The position numbers were made by a program, and so were the translations under genes. The notes under the pieces were generated by a model. The model was not told the DNA's origin. It was given only the letters and a program-made list of their open reading frames with translations, and did not search any database. From a virus, in IMG/VR virus record IMGVR_UViG_3300045131_001276, positions 1 to 64,000 of that record: DNA of 64,000 nt. One strand, written 5' to 3'. Positions 19,366-30,019 of the stretch are shown here, in pieces (the first letter of the stretch is position 1; each line of letters begins with the position of its first letter).

Positions 19366-19620
19366 CTAAACCAACACCGATCTTGGGCGACCAAGTTGCT
19401 TCTTGGGTCGTTCTGGGGTTGTGGATGGCTCGTAGGGTTTAATGATGGCTTCCAAGGCATCCAGATAAACCAGATAGGTGTTGCGGCCAGATTCGCCGAT
19501 GGATAACCGGGCGTGCCGAATCCTATTCTCTTGACACATCCGGCGTAACGTGGCGGAACTCAGGCCAGAAAGCCTGGAAGCGTCCCGCAGATTGAGTGTT
19601 GTTGGTTTTTCTGTGTCCAT
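19366..19620 (-). CDS. MerR/excisionase-type DNA-binding protein
   Basis: 84 residues. The first 60 form a winged HTH like AlpA/Xis proteins: LNLRDASRLSGLSSATLRRM, CQENRIRHARLSIGES, YLVYLDALEAII. The tail is basic with an RPKKQLGRPR AT-hook-like run. It could be an excisionase or an operon regulator; its distance from attP makes a regulator at least as likely. Confidence 0.6.
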   Translation of the reverse strand: MDTEKPTTLNLRDASRLSGLSSATLRRMCQENRIRHARLSIGESGRNTYLVYLDALEAIIKPYEPSTTPERPKKQLGRPRSVLV

Positions 19621-22600
19621 TAGCTTGCCGCTATCGTGTCGAATATAGAAGATTGTGGAACAACAAGCTCTGCGGCCTTCAGGTTACGAACAGCCACATC
19701 GAAATAGGATTTCTTCAGTTCACACCCGATGAATTTCCGCTCAAGCTGGATGGCCTTGTAACCTTCTGAACCAATACCCATGAAAGGTGAGAAGACGGTT
19801 TCCTTTGGGGCTGACCACAACTTCACACATCGCTCAATGACACCAAGTTGAAGTGGACACAGGTGGCGCTCGTCCTCGTTTTCTCTGGCGATGGTTACAT
19901 TTAAAACGTCTGTCTCTTGTATCCCCCCAGGGTAGAATTCAGACTTGCGATACCAGACCGGGGCGGCCCACTCTATCCATTCTTCGTTGGTTATCCAGCC
20001 CTCATTGGCTTTCTTGCGATAGCGACCCATGCCCGCAGGAATAGGCGCAGCATTGTCTCCAGGTTTCTTAAAGTGCAGGACATAATCCGGTAACGCCATC
20101 CGCATGTGCGACGAGTCTATTGATAGCGTCTTGAATAATAGGCCCCTGTCTTTTGTCCTGATGGCTTTTACCTGTGGGTCTTTGTCAATGACTATCTCGC
20201 CATAATAAATCCAGCCAGCGTCGATGTGGGCCTGAATAACGGCGCCACGGAAATCCTTTATGCCTGCGTAACCCTCGACGCCCTTGAATGTGATTCCTTG
20301 TGTCAAATGAACCAGGCACGACCGGCCCGGCTGAAGAATCCGCAGCATTTTGTCCGGCGCTATGAGGTATTTGTAATGCTCAATCATCTCGTCTTGACTT
20401 GACACATTACCCATATCCCTCGGTGTGTTGGTGTAGACATACATCCCAGGAAACGGCGGGGAATATACAATCAGGCCCACGCTATCTGTGGCGACATTAT
20501 CAACAGTGTCCACACTGTCACCCAGATACGCCGTCCACTTCATGCCGTGTTCAACGGTCGTAACATAATCCGCCGTTTCCCTTTTGGACTTAAATACGCT
20601 CTGTTGACCGGCGTTTGAGATTAGTTCGTCATACATTTTGGTTGATTCATCCTCCTTTCTTTGAATATTGGCTATGATTCCGCCGTCCGTGTCCGCAACC
20701 ACCAAATGCACATTGACCGGGTGTTCCTGGCCGAACCGCCAACACCGGCGAACAGCCTGATAGTATTTCTCGAACGAATGAGACAGACCCAGGAATATGA
20801 CGTTGTGACAGCACTGCCAGTTGATGCCGAATCCGGCGATTGACGGCTTCGTAACCAGCACACGAATCGTTCCGTCCGAGAATCCGAGGATTGACTTCTC
20901 TTTGTATTCAGGGGAATGTGAGCCCCGGATTTCAACTGCGCCCGGTATCATCTTTGTGACCATTTCGCTTTCGATATTCAGGTCACACCAGATTAGCCAT
21001 TGAGATTCATCCGTCTGGACCAGTTCGGCGCACTTTGTCACCCTGTCAACCAACGTGTCCCTTCTGGTTTGTCGCTGTTCATCTAATGATTTTGTTTCGA
21101 CAGGGAACAATGTTCCAGATTCAAAACAGTTGGTGTCTATCGTGTGTTGATTGAGAGACAGAGGGGGCAGAACGAATCCGTTATTATCGAAGCCGAGGTC
21201 AGCGGGCATACGCAATGCAACGGCCCACGAAGCCAACCATACCCAGAAGTGTTTGGCCGCATGACCCTTTAAACGCCACCGATGCGCCTCGCTTGAGAAA
21301 TCCTGCGTGAAAAACAGGGCCAAGACTTCCTTGACTGACATGATGCCCAGGAAATCCGAATGATTTACTATTTCCATTGTGTCGTTCGGGGCTGGTGTAG
21401 CTGTGCAGGCCAAACGGTAGGGAATTGATGACGCAAACTCCGAGACAGCGACCCGGAACTTCCCGCCATACATGTTTTTGAGGGCGCTGGAATTGTGAAC
21501 AAGAATACCGGCTACACTGAAAGATGGATGCCGAGTTGCGCCAATGTCGTAAAAATATATCCGTCCTTCGGCGTCCTTGAGTCTCTCCAGTTCAGGATTT
21601 CCTTGTTCGAGAACCTCAAGACCCTCCACCCTAAAGACTCCAGTTTCTGTGTTTTCTTCTGGTCCTGTTCCTTCCGGCTGTAGTGGCAGGCGCCATCCAC
21701 CTCGATGCAAATTTTCTTCTCTGGATTGGCTAAGTCTATCTTGTAGCACGTTGGATAGCCGGCTGTTCGTTTTCCCAGTGACAAGGCAAACTCCGCTATC
21801 CATCCTTCTGGCAATCTCTCCATCAAGAACGCCTGCGGCACTGTCATTCCCGTCCCGTTTCCGCCACGAACGGAAGGTCTGTGGTTCATGGCTTTCAATA
21901 TACGGGAAACCTTGGCCCGAATGTTTGGGTCCAACATCGGGTTGAGCCGAGCCAACCTCAACCGTTGTGCTATAGCCCCGGGATTGTCCGACCGTAACCA
22001 TTCCGATGTTTTTCTGCCCCGTTTCGCCCTGACAGCAGGGGAATGCACAATCGCCAATATCTCCGGCTGATTCATCCGCCATTTCGCTGAGCAGGATGTC
22101 CCGCAGAACCGCCGAGGTTTCGGCGAGTAAGCCTTTGGAACAAACATCCTCCCACACCACAGACAATGCCTTTCCTGTCTCCACGACATAATCACCTGGG
22201 CGCAAATCTTGTGCTCCAATCCATCCTCGCTGCGTGAAGAAGGGATGATTTGGGCTGGCAATAAGTGTGTCTTTTTTGATGAAAACTTTGGCGGCATGTT
22301 TGACCTCTCTTCTGTGAATGTCTGAAACGCAATCAACGCCGGCTGCGTTCAGAATGAAATCCCCATTCCGTATGTCTTCTATTGGTCTCTGTGTTGGCTT
22401 GTCGTTAATTAGACAATCAACTAATGTTCCCTTCGCAAAACACTCATCCAACACCAGTCCACTGAACTGATTCGGGTCGAAATTCTTTAGCATCTCATAG
22501 TTGGTGATATTGATTCCCGGCTGGATATCTTCCTGCGTCCGGCAAATGTTCACGGGGATTCCGAACTTGTCACCCTCTCTCTTGGTCTGATGTGACACAG

Positions 22601-22847
22601 CCAATGGAGCCAGAATCAACACATCCCCGAACGTGTGCGCCCGAACGTGTCTCGCCCACTCAAGTTGTATTCCGGTCTTCCCGAGCCCACAGTCGGCGAA
22701 AATGGCGGCCCGCCCACGCTGAACCGCCCACTTCACAATGGCTTTCTGAAAAGGAAATAGCTTTGAGTTGATAGCCGCCTCGTCAATCTCGAAGCCGCTC
22801 TCAACATCGAATATCTCTTTTGATTTTATGAAGGATGTGTAATCCAT
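19620..22847 (-). CDS. SNF2-type helicase-DNA methyltransferase fusion containing an intein
   Basis: About 1075 residues from the ATG at 22847 (MDYTSFIKSKEIFD); upstream ATGs at 22856 and 22895 are possible. Numbering here is from 22895. The helicase part has Walker A CGLGKT (Gly70-Thr74), motif II DESS split by the intein (Glu151 and Ser469), motif III CTATPAPND, and motif VI QAVRRCWRFGQ (~713-723). A C-terminal SAM methyltransferase follows, with motif IV SPPF (812-815) and motif I FSPFMGIGSEG near residue 1050, the circularly permuted beta-class order of N4-cytosine/N6-adenine enzymes. Phage helicase-MTase fusions are thought to methylate or remodel phage DNA against restriction. Confidence 0.88.
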   Translation of the reverse strand: MDYTSFIKSKEIFDVESGFEIDEAAINSKLFPFQKAIVKWAVQRGRAAIFADCGLGKTGIQLEWARHVRAHTFGDVLILAPLAVSHQTKREGDKFGIPVNICRTQEDIQPGINITNYEMLKNFDPNQFSGLVLDECFAKGTLVDCLINDKPTQRPIEDIRNGDFILNAAGVDCVSDIHRREVKHAAKVFIKKDTLIASPNHPFFTQRGWIGAQDLRPGDYVVETGKALSVVWEDVCSKGLLAETSAVLRDILLSEMADESAGDIGDCAFPCCQGETGQKNIGMVTVGQSRGYSTTVEVGSAQPDVGPKHSGQGFPYIESHEPQTFRSWRKRDGNDSAAGVLDGEIARRMDSGVCLVTGKTNSRLSNVLQDRLSQSREENLHRGGWRLPLQPEGTGPEENTETGVFRVEGLEVLEQGNPELERLKDAEGRIYFYDIGATRHPSFSVAGILVHNSSALKNMYGGKFRVAVSEFASSIPYRLACTATPAPNDTMEIVNHSDFLGIMSVKEVLALFFTQDFSSEAHRWRLKGHAAKHFWVWLASWAVALRMPADLGFDNNGFVLPPLSLNQHTIDTNCFESGTLFPVETKSLDEQRQTRRDTLVDRVTKCAELVQTDESQWLIWCDLNIESEMVTKMIPGAVEIRGSHSPEYKEKSILGFSDGTIRVLVTKPSIAGFGINWQCCHNVIFLGLSHSFEKYYQAVRRCWRFGQEHPVNVHLVVADTDGGIIANIQRKEDESTKMYDELISNAGQQSVFKSKRETADYVTTVEHGMKWTAYLGDSVDTVDNVATDSVGLIVYSPPFPGMYVYTNTPRDMGNVSSQDEMIEHYKYLIAPDKMLRILQPGRSCLVHLTQGITFKGVEGYAGIKDFRGAVIQAHIDAGWIYYGEIVIDKDPQVKAIRTKDRGLLFKTLSIDSSHMRMALPDYVLHFKKPGDNAAPIPAGMGRYRKKANEGWITNEEWIEWAAPVWYRKSEFYPGGIQETDVLNVTIARENEDERHLCPLQLGVIERCVKLWSAPKETVFSPFMGIGSEGYKAIQLERKFIGCELKKSYFDVAVRNLKAAELVVPQSSIFDTIAAS
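21492..22442 (-). mobile_element. Intein in helicase motif II, hosting a nested endonuclease gene
   Basis: A 317-residue insertion from Cys152 to Asn468 of the host protein. Block A is CFAKGTLVDCLINDK with GDFILN after it; block B is TLIASPNHPFFTQRGW; the C-terminal blocks are IYFYDIGATRHPSFSV and GILVHN with Ser as the +1 extein residue. All splicing residues (Cys1, block-B His, His-Asn, Ser+1) are present, so splicing should restore DESS of motif II. The central part is hydrophilic and non-repetitive, with no LAGLIDADG in frame. Instead, a separate endonuclease gene lies there in another frame. Confidence 0.85.
21512..22297 (-). CDS. Vsr-like homing endonuclease nested out of frame in the intein
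   Basis: About 261 residues from the ATG at 22297 (MPPKFSSKKTHLLP), which has its own AGAGAGGT site; a TTG at 22336 is possible. A Cys-rich zinc motif (CLWCGRMFV ... RFCGTSCSAKWRMN) and a basic helical linker lead to a Vsr/DUF559-like nuclease: IDLANPEKKICIEVDGACHY, then KTQKLESLGWRVLRFSN and KEIL. Asp of the EVDG segment and the His are catalytic candidates. The whole gene lies within the intein but in a different frame, and the intein frame stays open through it. Mobility of the intein by this nuclease is inferred. Confidence 0.75.
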   Translation of the reverse strand: MPPKFSSKKTHLLPAQIIPSSRSEDGLEHKICAQVIMSWRQERHCLWCGRMFVPKAYSPKPRRFCGTSCSAKWRMNQPEILAIVHSPAVRAKRGRKTSEWLRSDNPGAIAQRLRLARLNPMLDPNIRAKVSRILKAMNHRPSVRGGNGTGMTVPQAFLMERLPEGWIAEFALSLGKRTAGYPTCYKIDLANPEKKICIEVDGACHYSRKEQDQKKTQKLESLGWRVLRFSNKEILNWRDSRTPKDGYIFTTLAQLGIHLSV

Positions 22848-22914
22848 AATTCCCATAACCCCGTTGTGTTGTTTGGTGTGGGTTTTGAGGCCCACACCCT
22901 ATGTTATATTCTGT

Positions 22915-24096
22915 CTAGTCTTTGAGGTAGGAGACAGATCTTCTATGTCTTAGAAGAGCCATAGGTAGATATAATCTTCCGATATGTCTTGGGTTTTGTT
23001 CTTGTATATGTTTGTCTGTTTCTGGCTTGTTTATAGATAGCAAGTCTTCATATTCGGAACGCTCAGTTTCCATACAGTATGTTGATGTCGTCCCTTTTTT
23101 CGGTAGTAGCAAGGGAACATGGGTCGCAGGCTTTCTCTCTCCATCTGAGCCTCGAGATGGAGAGATATTTAGGAGATGTTTCTCAAGTTGTATCTCTAAA
23201 CGAAGTCTTTTATTCATTAGGCGGTGAGCCATAAACTCGTTCCAACAAAAAACTATTGTGTTTCCCACTCTTGGTGAATATTGATTTATCTTAGGATAAT
23301 CTTGGATCAAGAAGTTTCTTAAATGAAAGGCGGGGCTGTCTGATGTGAGTCCATCACCTTTATATACTAAATCTACAAACTCTGACGCTCTACCCGCATC
23401 CCCAAAGTAGTGAGTAAAATAAAAATGCAAAGCGCTTATAGCACTGCGTGGTCCGGATATTTTATTCGAACCATGGTAGTTGTGTATTAACTTAACTGAA
23501 CCGGAAACTTCCGGGTGGTTAATAAAATACTCCAGACGTTCATTCTCTAAAGATTGGTTGGCTATCAGACGCATATTAGTACGGTACGAAGCAATCTCCC
23601 TTTTGTTATATACAAAATCCCAAAGCAATCTCACTGCTGCATCATCTTCACCCCTCATCATCAGACCTAACATGCGGGCAGAATCAGAGAGTGTTCTTTT
23701 TCTGTGTTTATCTATAGTCATAATACATCTTTCGTTAAGATTAAAAGCACAGAAAACTAACTGTGTTATACCCGTGGTTCTTATACTTTCAAGCCGATGT
23801 TGCCCGTCAAAAAATGAACAAATACCGTTCTGTCTGGTGAACAATAACGGAACAAAATTCATCTCCCACAGTCCCTGTTCCATAAATTTGCTATACTGAG
23901 AGACTACAGATTGGACAATTTTTCGGTTAGGCACTCGGTCCTCCGAGTTCAAAAGCATAAGAGCATCGTCTGGTGTGATTTTACATACGACCCCAAAACT
24001 GTCATCTGGGCATGTATCAGCAAAAGACAACCACTCGGCAATACTTGTGCCCGAATCTCTTCCCTCAATCCTGTCAGTGTAACGATCCTTCATCAT
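22915..24096 (-). CDS. ParB/DGQHR-like phage protein
   Basis: 393 residues. The N-terminal third contains the ParB/Srx-type signature: ITPDDALMLLNSED (helix), WEMNFVPLLFTRQNGICSFF followed by DGQHRLESIRTTG, then the beta strand ITQLVFCAFN. The rest is helical and resembles a common but uncharacterised phage family with this domain. GGAGGAGGAAAAAG precedes the ATG at 24096. It is the first structural gene of the early leftward operon after the switch gene. Confidence 0.6.
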   Translation of the reverse strand: MMKDRYTDRIEGRDSGTSIAEWLSFADTCPDDSFGVVCKITPDDALMLLNSEDRVPNRKIVQSVVSQYSKFMEQGLWEMNFVPLLFTRQNGICSFFDGQHRLESIRTTGITQLVFCAFNLNERCIMTIDKHRKRTLSDSARMLGLMMRGEDDAAVRLLWDFVYNKREIASYRTNMRLIANQSLENERLEYFINHPEVSGSVKLIHNYHGSNKISGPRSAISALHFYFTHYFGDAGRASEFVDLVYKGDGLTSDSPAFHLRNFLIQDYPKINQYSPRVGNTIVFCWNEFMAHRLMNKRLRLEIQLEKHLLNISPSRGSDGERKPATHVPLLLPKKGTTSTYCMETERSEYEDLLSINKPETDKHIQEQNPRHIGRLYLPMALLRHRRSVSYLKD

Positions 24097-25372: not shown

Positions 25373-26440
25373 ATGATAAAACAACGATGCCCACAGTGCC
25401 GCAGATTTCAAGGATATGATGAGTCGACTTGCGCTTGTGGGTCTTCACTGCCCCGGTCGCAGAAGGATGTTTGGTGCTACACCAAGCGGAACGGCCAGCG
25501 ACACTTTAAACGGCTGGGGCGAATCACAAAGGTTGAAGCGGAAGCGGCTCACGCCCGGTGGTTGACCGAACTGCTTCAACCGCAATCCTACACTGCGGAC
25601 CAAGTTGTCCTTGACAGCGCATGTCAGATGTATGTCGACAAACTCAGGGACGCCGACAAGCCGTATTATCGTGAGGCCCGATTATTCCTTGACAGGCTTA
25701 TGACCGTGGTTGGCCAGGGGATAGCGCTTCCCGACATTACGACCGAACTCGCTAGAGAATACCAGCGCCGGGTCGTCAAGGGCGGGGCTTCGCTGGCCTA
25801 CGCCGACAGGCATGTGGCAATCGCCAAGGCCATGTTCGGATATGTGGCGCCGCATCTTCCAAATCCGTTCAAACTCGTTAAGATGTTTCGGCCCGACAAT
25901 ACACTGGTTAGGATGCTGACCAACGAACAGGAAGCCGAACTATTGAGGAATGCTCGGGAGTTGAAGACGAAGAATATGCCGTGGCTACCAGGAATAATAC
26001 TCGTTGCGCTTCGAACCGGCCTCCGGCGTAACAACATCCTCTCGCTTAAATGGGAACAGGTGAACTTTGACACCAGGTCAATCGCCGTGATTCAGAAGGG
26101 GAAGCGTAGGCTGTCCGTGCCGATCGCCACGGATTTAATTGAAGCGCTTCAAGAATTACAGACACTTAGCAACAGCGAATATGTTTTTCCGAACATCAAC
26201 ACAGGGAAGCCCTACGGCCATTTCGACAAGTCATGGAAGAAACTCAAGTTGGCTTCGGGCATACCCTTACACTTCCGATTTCACGACCTCCGCCACCACG
26301 TAGCGACCAAGCTCGCCCGCAACACACGGAATCCGCTGATTGTGCAAACCATCCTCGGCCATTCGGCGCTTGCAACCACACAGAAATATATGCACGTCTT
26401 TAATACCGACCTGACAGACGCCGTAGACAGCCTGAAGTAA
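25373..26440 (+). CDS. Tyrosine integrase with N-terminal zinc ribbon
   Basis: 355 residues. The N-terminus has CPQC and CACG, a zinc ribbon, and a basic stretch that could bind arm sites. The SAM-like core-binding domain spans ~75-170. The catalytic domain has Arg218 (RTGLRRNN), His304-x-x-Arg307 (FHDLRHHV), His330 (LGHSA) and the nucleophile Tyr339 (QKYMH). It catalyses site-specific integration and excision. It follows the repressor-like gene; the attP-like region lies 5.3 kb downstream. Confidence 0.9.
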   Translation: MIKQRCPQCRRFQGYDESTCACGSSLPRSQKDVWCYTKRNGQRHFKRLGRITKVEAEAAHARWLTELLQPQSYTADQVVLDSACQMYVDKLRDADKPYYREARLFLDRLMTVVGQGIALPDITTELAREYQRRVVKGGASLAYADRHVAIAKAMFGYVAPHLPNPFKLVKMFRPDNTLVRMLTNEQEAELLRNARELKTKNMPWLPGIILVALRTGLRRNNILSLKWEQVNFDTRSIAVIQKGKRRLSVPIATDLIEALQELQTLSNSEYVFPNINTGKPYGHFDKSWKKLKLASGIPLHFRFHDLRHHVATKLARNTRNPLIVQTILGHSALATTQKYMHVFNTDLTDAVDSLK

Positions 26441-29113: not shown

Positions 29114-30019
29114 ATGCAGACAGCACTTCAAATAAGCAACCCGAACATGGAAGTATTGGACGCCCTGATGACCGCAGGGGCATCGCCAAAGACCGGCAAG
29201 GAATACTTCAGCGACCTGCAACAATTGGGACGCATCGCCGGAAAGAGCCTGCACGGAATACTTGAGTCTTTGTTGTCTACCCGTGAGCAGGCTTTCGTGA
29301 TGGTCGGGAAACTTCGCCAACAAATGATAACGGCGGGCCTCGCTCCCAACACAATCAACCGACGCTTGGCTACGATCCGTGGACTTCTCCGGGTCGCAAG
29401 GGACATGGGAATAATTGGCTGGACAATGGATATCAAGAACCTGAGAACAGTCAACGTCAGGAACACGCAGGGGCCCGGAGTAGAAAAGGTCAGAGAAATG
29501 CTGGCCGAAGTGAAAGACACGGCCCAGGGCGCAAGAGACAGGGCAATCCTGGCGCTTCTGTCTACAATGGGGCTGAGAAGGACAGAAGTTACGGCCCTGA
29601 ACATCGAAGACCTGCAAGGCTCGAAGATTCGGGTCCAACGCAAAGGCTCGCTCGGCTATGTGACAATGACCGTTCCCGAGGCTACGTTGGCGGCAATAAA
29701 CACATGGCTGCGATTCAGAGGCGAAGGGTCGGGGCCTCTGTTCACGTCTTTTGATAGGGCAGGGAAGGGTGACGGAAGATTGACCGGGCGCTCAGTGGCC
29801 CGCATAACCAATCAGAAGGGAGGATGTTCACCGCACGCGTTGAGACACACAGCGATAACCACCGCCATTGAAATGGCTGACTCTATTGGTGTAGAGTTCA
29901 CAGAATGCCGCCAATTCAGTGGACACAAACAGATTGAAACCCTGTTGATATACAGGGATCAGATTCGCAACACTCAGGGCCGCCTGGCTGAAGCGGTGGC
30001 CGGAAGGATGATGGGGTGA
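29114..30019 (+). CDS. Second tyrosine recombinase (XerC-like)
   Basis: 301 residues with AAAAGGAG before the ATG. The N-terminal SAM-like domain spans ~25-105 (SPKTGKEYFSDLQQLGRIAG, APNTINRRLATIRGLLRVA). The catalytic residues are Arg155 (GLRRTEV), His241-x-x-Arg244 (PHALRHT), His271 (SGHKQIE) and Tyr280 (LLIYRD). It is closer to XerC/D than to the first integrase and is nearer to attP. Either it or the first enzyme could be the phage integrase; the other may resolve dimers or drive another inversion. Confidence 0.85.
   Translation: MQTALQISNPNMEVLDALMTAGASPKTGKEYFSDLQQLGRIAGKSLHGILESLLSTREQAFVMVGKLRQQMITAGLAPNTINRRLATIRGLLRVARDMGIIGWTMDIKNLRTVNVRNTQGPGVEKVREMLAEVKDTAQGARDRAILALLSTMGLRRTEVTALNIEDLQGSKIRVQRKGSLGYVTMTVPEATLAAINTWLRFRGEGSGPLFTSFDRAGKGDGRLTGRSVARITNQKGGCSPHALRHTAITTAIEMADSIGVEFTECRQFSGHKQIETLLIYRDQIRNTQGRLAEAVAGRMMG

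Follow-up and report, generated by a model that had tools for sequence, protein, structure and literature searches.

The helicase-methyltransferase gene of the tailed phage analysed here very probably contains a mobile cis-splicing intein with a homing endonuclease that is overprinted on it rather than fused to it. The window, i.e. the whole stretch of DNA that was analysed, comprises 64 kb out of a virus record of 70,181 bases, and the phage is recognized as tailed by its genes for contractile tail sheath, baseplate, terminase, portal and integrase. Mechanistically, the host mRNA would be read in frame 0 straight through the intein, the Hint domain would be assembled from the two ends of the intein, and self-excision would leave an intact helicase-methyltransferase, while the DNA between the Hint halves would serve as a whole nuclease gene in the +1 frame. 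A separate translation of the nuclease would begin at an internal start whose Shine-Dalgarno-like site lies within intein codons, and the enzyme would bind alleles that lack the intein and cut them at the conserved DE(C/S) codons of Walker B, with the repair copying the intein in. In the overlap, the nuclease frame would be under protein-level selection, and the intein frame would need only to stay open there, which would result in a disordered linker. The computed anatomy of the locus is as follows:

19620..22895, minus strand: host gene, a fusion of an SNF2-like helicase and an N4/N6 DNA methyltransferase, 1091 aa, a single open reading frame spanning the intein, putative start
21492..22442, minus strand: intein, 317 aa, from Cys1 to His-Asn, at the site DE^SS (Walker B / motif II)
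22158..22442, minus strand: N-terminal Hint half, intein residues 1-95, predicted with pLDDT of about 94-97
21648..22157, minus strand: intein-frame linker, mostly disordered, pLDDT <50 over most of it; the nuclease gene read out of frame
21492..21647, minus strand: C-terminal Hint half with blocks F and G, intein residues 266-317, overlapping the C-terminus of the nuclease to 21512
21512..22297, minus strand: nested homing-endonuclease reading frame, 261 aa, in the +1 frame relative to the host, with the ATG at 22297 and the stop codon ending at 21512
22303..22310, minus strand: Shine-Dalgarno-like site AGAGAGGT for the ATG at 22297, duplex -8.6, in the intein codons for HRREV (AGA AGA GAG GTC)
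22091..22165, minus strand: zinc finger of the nuclease, Cys 45, 48, 65 and 69
21524..21859, minus strand: Vsr/DUF559-type nuclease domain with D188, E199, D201, H205 and D212

The host gene gives profile matches to Helicase_C (4.6e-8), N6_N4_Mtase (1.5e-14) and the DNA helicase family phrog_16 (3.5e-64), and the intein is inserted after the DE pair in GLVLDE^SSALK. The C1 codon starts at 22442 and the final Asn codon finishes at 21492, and the initial annotation, which had described an intein with a Cys start, a His-Asn end and a +1 Ser in the DESS motif of a helicase, is therefore exact in its coordinates. The splicing residues, i.e. Cys1, SPNH in block B, the terminal HN and Ser+1, are those of class 1 inteins. 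The intein frame matches the Intein_splicing profile with E=4e-7, which is below Pfam's own cut-off, and an AlphaFold model predicts both Hint halves (model residues 1-92 and 267-318) with confidence (pLDDT about 94-97) and a low-confidence middle with few predicted elements. A Foldseek comparison of this model with known structures yielded 22 matches at E<=0.001, among them the gp41-1, Mtu RecA and Npu DnaB inteins. As only the Hint halves are confidently modelled, the splicing domain needs nothing from the middle to be complete, and this middle represents the wrong-frame reading of the nuclease gene. Judged by its residues and the predicted Hint fold, the insertion likely is a class 1 cis-splicing intein.

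The nested frame had been read as a zinc finger followed by a Vsr/DUF559-like nuclease, and this assignment is borne out by a DUF559 profile match (E=3e-13), by the four-Cys finger and by the predicted fold. In an alignment with 48 sequences, D188, E199, D201, H205 and D212 are invariant, as are the zinc-finger residues Cys 45, 48 and 65, with Cys 69 being nearly so. The AlphaFold model, for which an alignment of 48 relatives was used, reaches a pLDDT >=90 from residue 41 onwards, except for a short loop near 143 and for positions ~201-210, whereas residues 1-40 are predicted to be disordered, and a second candidate start, Met37 (ATG at 22189), is located in this region. The nuclease domain gives structural matches to NGO0050 (3hrl; VIA Z 10.4, 2.4 A over 85 residues), to I-Bth0305I (3r3p; VIA Z 9.6, 3.0 A over 90 residues), which also ranks first by E-value in Foldseek, and to Vsr (1cw0; VIA Z 8.7, 3.1 A over 99 residues). 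The model thus predicts a Vsr-type restriction-endonuclease fold, and the putative substrate would be the uninterrupted allele.

This arrangement is not one oddity but a widespread family with >90 distinct relatives in phage and bacterial DNA. A tblastn search of phage genomes with the nuclease gave matches in 40 records (Vibrio, Pseudomonas and Corynebacterium phages), essentially all within genes annotated as helicase, coil-containing or hypothetical protein, and in 8/8 loci fetched from this set the annotated CDS and the nuclease lie in different frames, the nuclease always in +1. Profile scans of viral and bacterial contigs were added to obtain the locus set, for which a nuclease score of >=90 bits was required. 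The nuclease-only search comprised 111 loci, and in 107 of these the host frame is open across the entire nuclease match, again with the nuclease always in +1. As the query was the nuclease only, this openness was not selected for. The four exceptions are three nucleases adjoining uninterrupted genes and one decayed copy. A reverse search with the N-terminal Hint region alone detected 65 distinct inteins, of which 63 contain the nuclease, all in +1, and two do not; an in-frame endonuclease was present in none of the 63 nuclease-bearing distinct inteins found this way. In homologous inteins, the second frame is accordingly not absent where the nuclease has been kept. Split inteins had been considered for L067, L082 and L077, which are actually free-standing nucleases adjoining uninterrupted genes, and for L028 and L110, which are decaying copies.

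The splicing motifs and the insertion site are conserved as well. In 104/107 loci, the intein terminates with HN before a Cys, Ser or Thr; in the remaining three (L084, L104, L111), the junction is SN-Cys, with the penultimate His replaced by Ser. In 90 distinct loci, the +1 residue is Cys (67) or Ser (23), and Cys1 and the block-B His are invariant across 45 aligned inteins. All 81 distinct inteins that were delimited by script sit directly after the DE pair, and a few other inteins are inserted some residues beyond DE, e.g. at DEAHHA^C. The checked hosts comprise helicases of the SNF2 and ResIII types, two clamp loaders of the DnaX type (DNA_pol3_delta2) and a probable terminase with a weak match to the Pfam family Terminase_6C; the terminase and the DnaX-like clamp loaders that harbour this intein type are those of L032, L068 and L114. 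The nucleases from five clamp-loader-like hosts are mostly mutual nearest relatives, as if they were target-adapted. At L081, a further HN^C at host residues of about 405-420 (GMVIHN^CGKGKT) suggests another intein in the Walker A motif of the same helicase, and second HN[CST] matches also occur at L025, L037, L038, L040, L056 and L078. The distances of nuclease, Hint and extein correlate moderately (0.28-0.46) and do not separate a single from a multiple origin.

The conservation of both frames is most evident from the stop codons, which were counted in 93 distinct loci with 19,565 nuclease codons. As these loci were chosen for their open host frame, the unconditional figure for openness is the above-mentioned 107/111. 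A within-gene synonymous shuffle predicts 771 host-frame stops in the 93 loci, but 0 are observed, whereas the third frame of the same loci has 1,388 stops with 1,256 expected; shuffles and third-frame control together rule out that the nested frame is a chance ORF. For the window nuclease alone, 0 host-frame stops are observed against 8.0 expected in the same kind of shuffle, in agreement with the initial description of an intein frame that stays open throughout. Nuclease codons ending with T do not occur before AA, AG or GA (0/5,265), as compared to 24% elsewhere. In free-standing relatives beside uninterrupted genes, which served as control, the avoidance is absent or much weaker (L067 29/79, L082 23/68, L077 7/60). 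Moreover, the +1 frame of two Vibrio mini-inteins that lack the nuclease is full of stops, and the second ORF is therefore no by-product of the Hint coding.

Why is it always the +1 frame? A frame conflict in +1 arises only where a nuclease codon ends with T before AA, AG or GA, and the exchange of T by C at the third position is always silent. As every conflict can be removed by a silent change, any nuclease can be carried in this frame, and a search over all synonymous encodings indeed gave unavoidable stops in 0/93 nucleases. In the +2 frame, the same search gave at least one unavoidable stop in 86/93 nucleases, caused by a Met that is followed by a codon obliged to begin with A. These forced stops in +2 and the silent solutions in +1 may be the cause of the fixed frame. 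Common descent would likewise keep the frame, because a frameshifting indel destroys the host, and coding constraint and common descent are not separable as causes.

Which of the two frames is selected was addressed by substitution profiles by codon position in independent close pairs. In the extein (0.53) and in the N-terminal Hint half (0.37), host position 3 is the one that changes most often, but in the overlap the maximum shifts to host position 1, equivalent to nuclease position 3 (0.34 vs. 0.175 and 0.176), and over block F/G the values are low at all positions (0.18, 0.11, 0.22). The divergence at nuclease four-fold sites amounts to 0.36 in the linker, as compared to 0.41 at host four-fold sites in the N-terminal Hint half, and the residues of the intein-frame linker are therefore nearly free, whereas it is reduced to 0.21 over block F/G (p=0.007 vs. 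linker). The selected product across the overlap is the nuclease, and the main demand on the intein-frame linker is the absence of stops. Only the ends are truly dual-coding, i.e. block F/G everywhere and block B in the group of the window, in which the nuclease ORF also overlaps block B with its residues 1-40 that are predicted to be disordered and with the alternative start Met37. The initial annotation had assumed that one stretch of DNA encodes two proteins, with reduced synonymous variation as the mark of it. Both frames are real and the reduction is found over block F/G, but most of the overlap consists of a selected nuclease and a disordered linker with nearly free sites.

The mobility of the element can be followed in Vibrio phages, where one site occurs with three alleles. 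It is empty in a 544-aa helicase (e.g. of Vibrio phages PS17B.1 and 1.251.O), it contains a 150-aa mini-intein without nuclease at DE^CHH in Vibrio phages K457 (L253:2001-4082) and K389 (L254:2001-4085), and it contains a full 356-aa intein with nuclease in Vibrio phages 1.194.O, K391 and 1.088.O. In terms of the homing-cycle model (PMC3229294), the empty, mini-intein and full alleles are the states X, Y and Z. The K457 and K389 mini-inteins share only ~53% nucleotide identity with the full intein where aligned, with an identical final stretch, and they are thus not a simple recent deletion of it. L214 and L231, in contrast, are 142- and 146-aa mini-inteins that retain the nuclease C-terminus out of frame, which indicates loss by in-frame deletion; in total, the nuclease has been lost in L214, L231, L221, L244, L253 and L254. 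Phages 1.194.O and 1.088.O (L007/L009) differ at third positions by ~0.3-0.6 in most of the extein but only by 0.00-0.07 over codons 150-480, inside the intein at 142-498 (Fisher 5e-18), and such a near-identical intein within diverged exteins must have been transferred recently. Free-standing relatives of the nuclease are located directly upstream of intein-less helicases at L067:3355-5623 and L082:1513-3370, the site in L067 reading IIDEAHR, which suggests them as a state from which the nested gene may have arisen or into which it may have escaped. As already supposed initially, the nuclease probably mobilises the intein by cleavage of the empty site, which is supported by the allele series and the recent transfer.

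How would the nuclease be produced? In 92/93 distinct loci, a start codon is found ahead of the zinc finger, and the Shine-Dalgarno pairing there is better than that of internal in-frame starts (p=0.002) and of nearby starts in other frames (p=2e-8). A duplex of -6 or lower is present in 55% of the loci, compared to 37% and 22% in these controls, and it is weak in many loci. The window nuclease does possess the own Shine-Dalgarno-like site that had been ascribed to it, AGAGAGGT at 22310-22303, and in several other loci such a site lies within the codons GAC/GAT-GAG-GTT of a DEV motif; a selection on the site inside HRREV by use of GAG over GAA was not significant (p=0.34). Broken-nuclease relics as a general pattern, considered because of L031 and L040-L042, were rejected, as the path from a plausible start to the nuclease is interrupted by a stop, located in the zinc finger, in L040 and L041 alone. 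The start codons and the sites above controls support a separate translation from an internal start, as initially proposed. Alternatively, a +1 ribosomal frameshift within the N-terminal Hint half might produce a fusion of N-extein, partial Hint domain and nuclease, and the frame relation that is always +1 as well as the few loci with poor Shine-Dalgarno sites would fit to this. We consider such a fusion unlikely, as the genetic code may account for the fixed frame, and as nearly all loci have a usable start before the zinc finger with the statistics just given.

That the second frame is accidental, be it a chance ORF in a long linker or the relic of a nuclease that is no longer made, has next to no probability. 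Long spurious ORFs do occur in G+C-rich DNA, and some inteins have no nuclease (the six listed above), but chance would explain neither the third-position bias of the nuclease frame nor the catalytic residues that are invariant in 48 sequences nor the confident fold, and nuclease-less mini-inteins have a stop-filled +1 frame. The insertion could also be a tolerated loop around a nuclease gene that does not splice, as has been proposed for the ShiLan element; the ShiLan and Pacc40 insertions indeed hold hidden HNH-type ORFs without splicing motifs (PMC11855218). For the present family, this is very improbable: Cys1 and the block-B His are invariant in the 45 inteins, HN and C/S/T form the ends in 104/107 loci, the Hint halves are predicted with high confidence, and mini-inteins retain Hint but not the linker. 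An unspliced host protein would be dead, because the insert splits the catalytic DE(C/S) motif. The cis-splicing intein with an overprinted, separately translated endonuclease hence is the preferred explanation.

There are several systems to which this arrangement can be compared. In classical bifunctional inteins such as PI-SceI and Mtu RecA, the endonuclease also lies between the Hint halves and the life cycle is that of homing, but there the endonuclease is an in-frame domain that is released with the intein, whereas the nuclease described here is always in +1. I-Bth0305I / EDxHD enzymes resemble the nested nuclease in the fold of the catalytic domain and in having DNA-binding modules ahead of the nuclease, but I-Bth0305I sits in a group I intron and shares 26% identity, whereas the nested enzyme has a zinc finger at its N-terminus and is carried by an intein. 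Dassa et al. reportedly described in 2009 split inteins in fractured genes, with a separate gene of a Vsr-like homing endonuclease between the halves. Both systems thus have intein halves around a separately encoded Vsr-like endonuclease, but in split inteins the host is broken into two ORFs and splicing occurs in trans, whereas here the host ORF is continuous (107/111 loci) and the genes overlap base for base. A literature search for a prior description gave as only near case the ShiLan-type insertions in actinophage methylases, in which an HNH endonuclease is encoded out of frame while the host frame is open (Arsenault, Gosselin and Gogarten 2025, PMC11855218). Common to both are the out-of-frame nuclease, the open host frame, the patchy phage distribution and the probable homing, but the ShiLan-type insertions have no splicing domain, occur in few phages and have a GTG start for which no ribosome site was found (PMC11855218), whereas the present family has a complete Hint domain and a Vsr/DUF559 nuclease, at least 93 distinct loci and a frame that is fixed at +1.

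On balance, we regard it as fairly probable that the inteins of this family form a previously unrecognised, widespread class: the linker is overprinted with a complete homing-endonuclease gene, the frame of this gene is invariably +1 and can accommodate any nuclease through silent changes alone, and mobility and splicing thereby evolve as separate proteins encoded by the same DNA. The main uncertainty over this novelty is a 2025 preprint by Gosselin et al. on actinophage inteins with a non-canonical architecture, whose title and citation suggest overlapping frames in phage inteins and which may treat related cases. The family would represent a third way to couple a self-splicing element with its mobility enzyme, beside the in-frame fusion in inteins and the separate gene in group I introns, and in evolutionary terms it offers a bridge from the endonucleases that are free-standing in phages, via split inteins with their separate Vsr-like endonucleases, to ordinary inteins. 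Its many long overlaps of genes on the same strand constitute a large natural data set, which allows a clear test of where selection acts and of what favours the use of a single frame, and dozens of its nucleases are candidates for site-specific enzymes directed at Walker-B codons. As these nucleases are nested inside helicase genes, annotation pipelines miss them; in the fetched records the helicase CDS alone is annotated, often as hypothetical or coil-containing protein. In the window, the upstream neighbour of the host gene is a phrog_5931 gene (22915-24096; 3e-30), and the same phage also encodes an HNH endonuclease (1499-2218; phrog_119, 6e-15) and two proteins of the integrase family (25373-26440 and 29114-30019).
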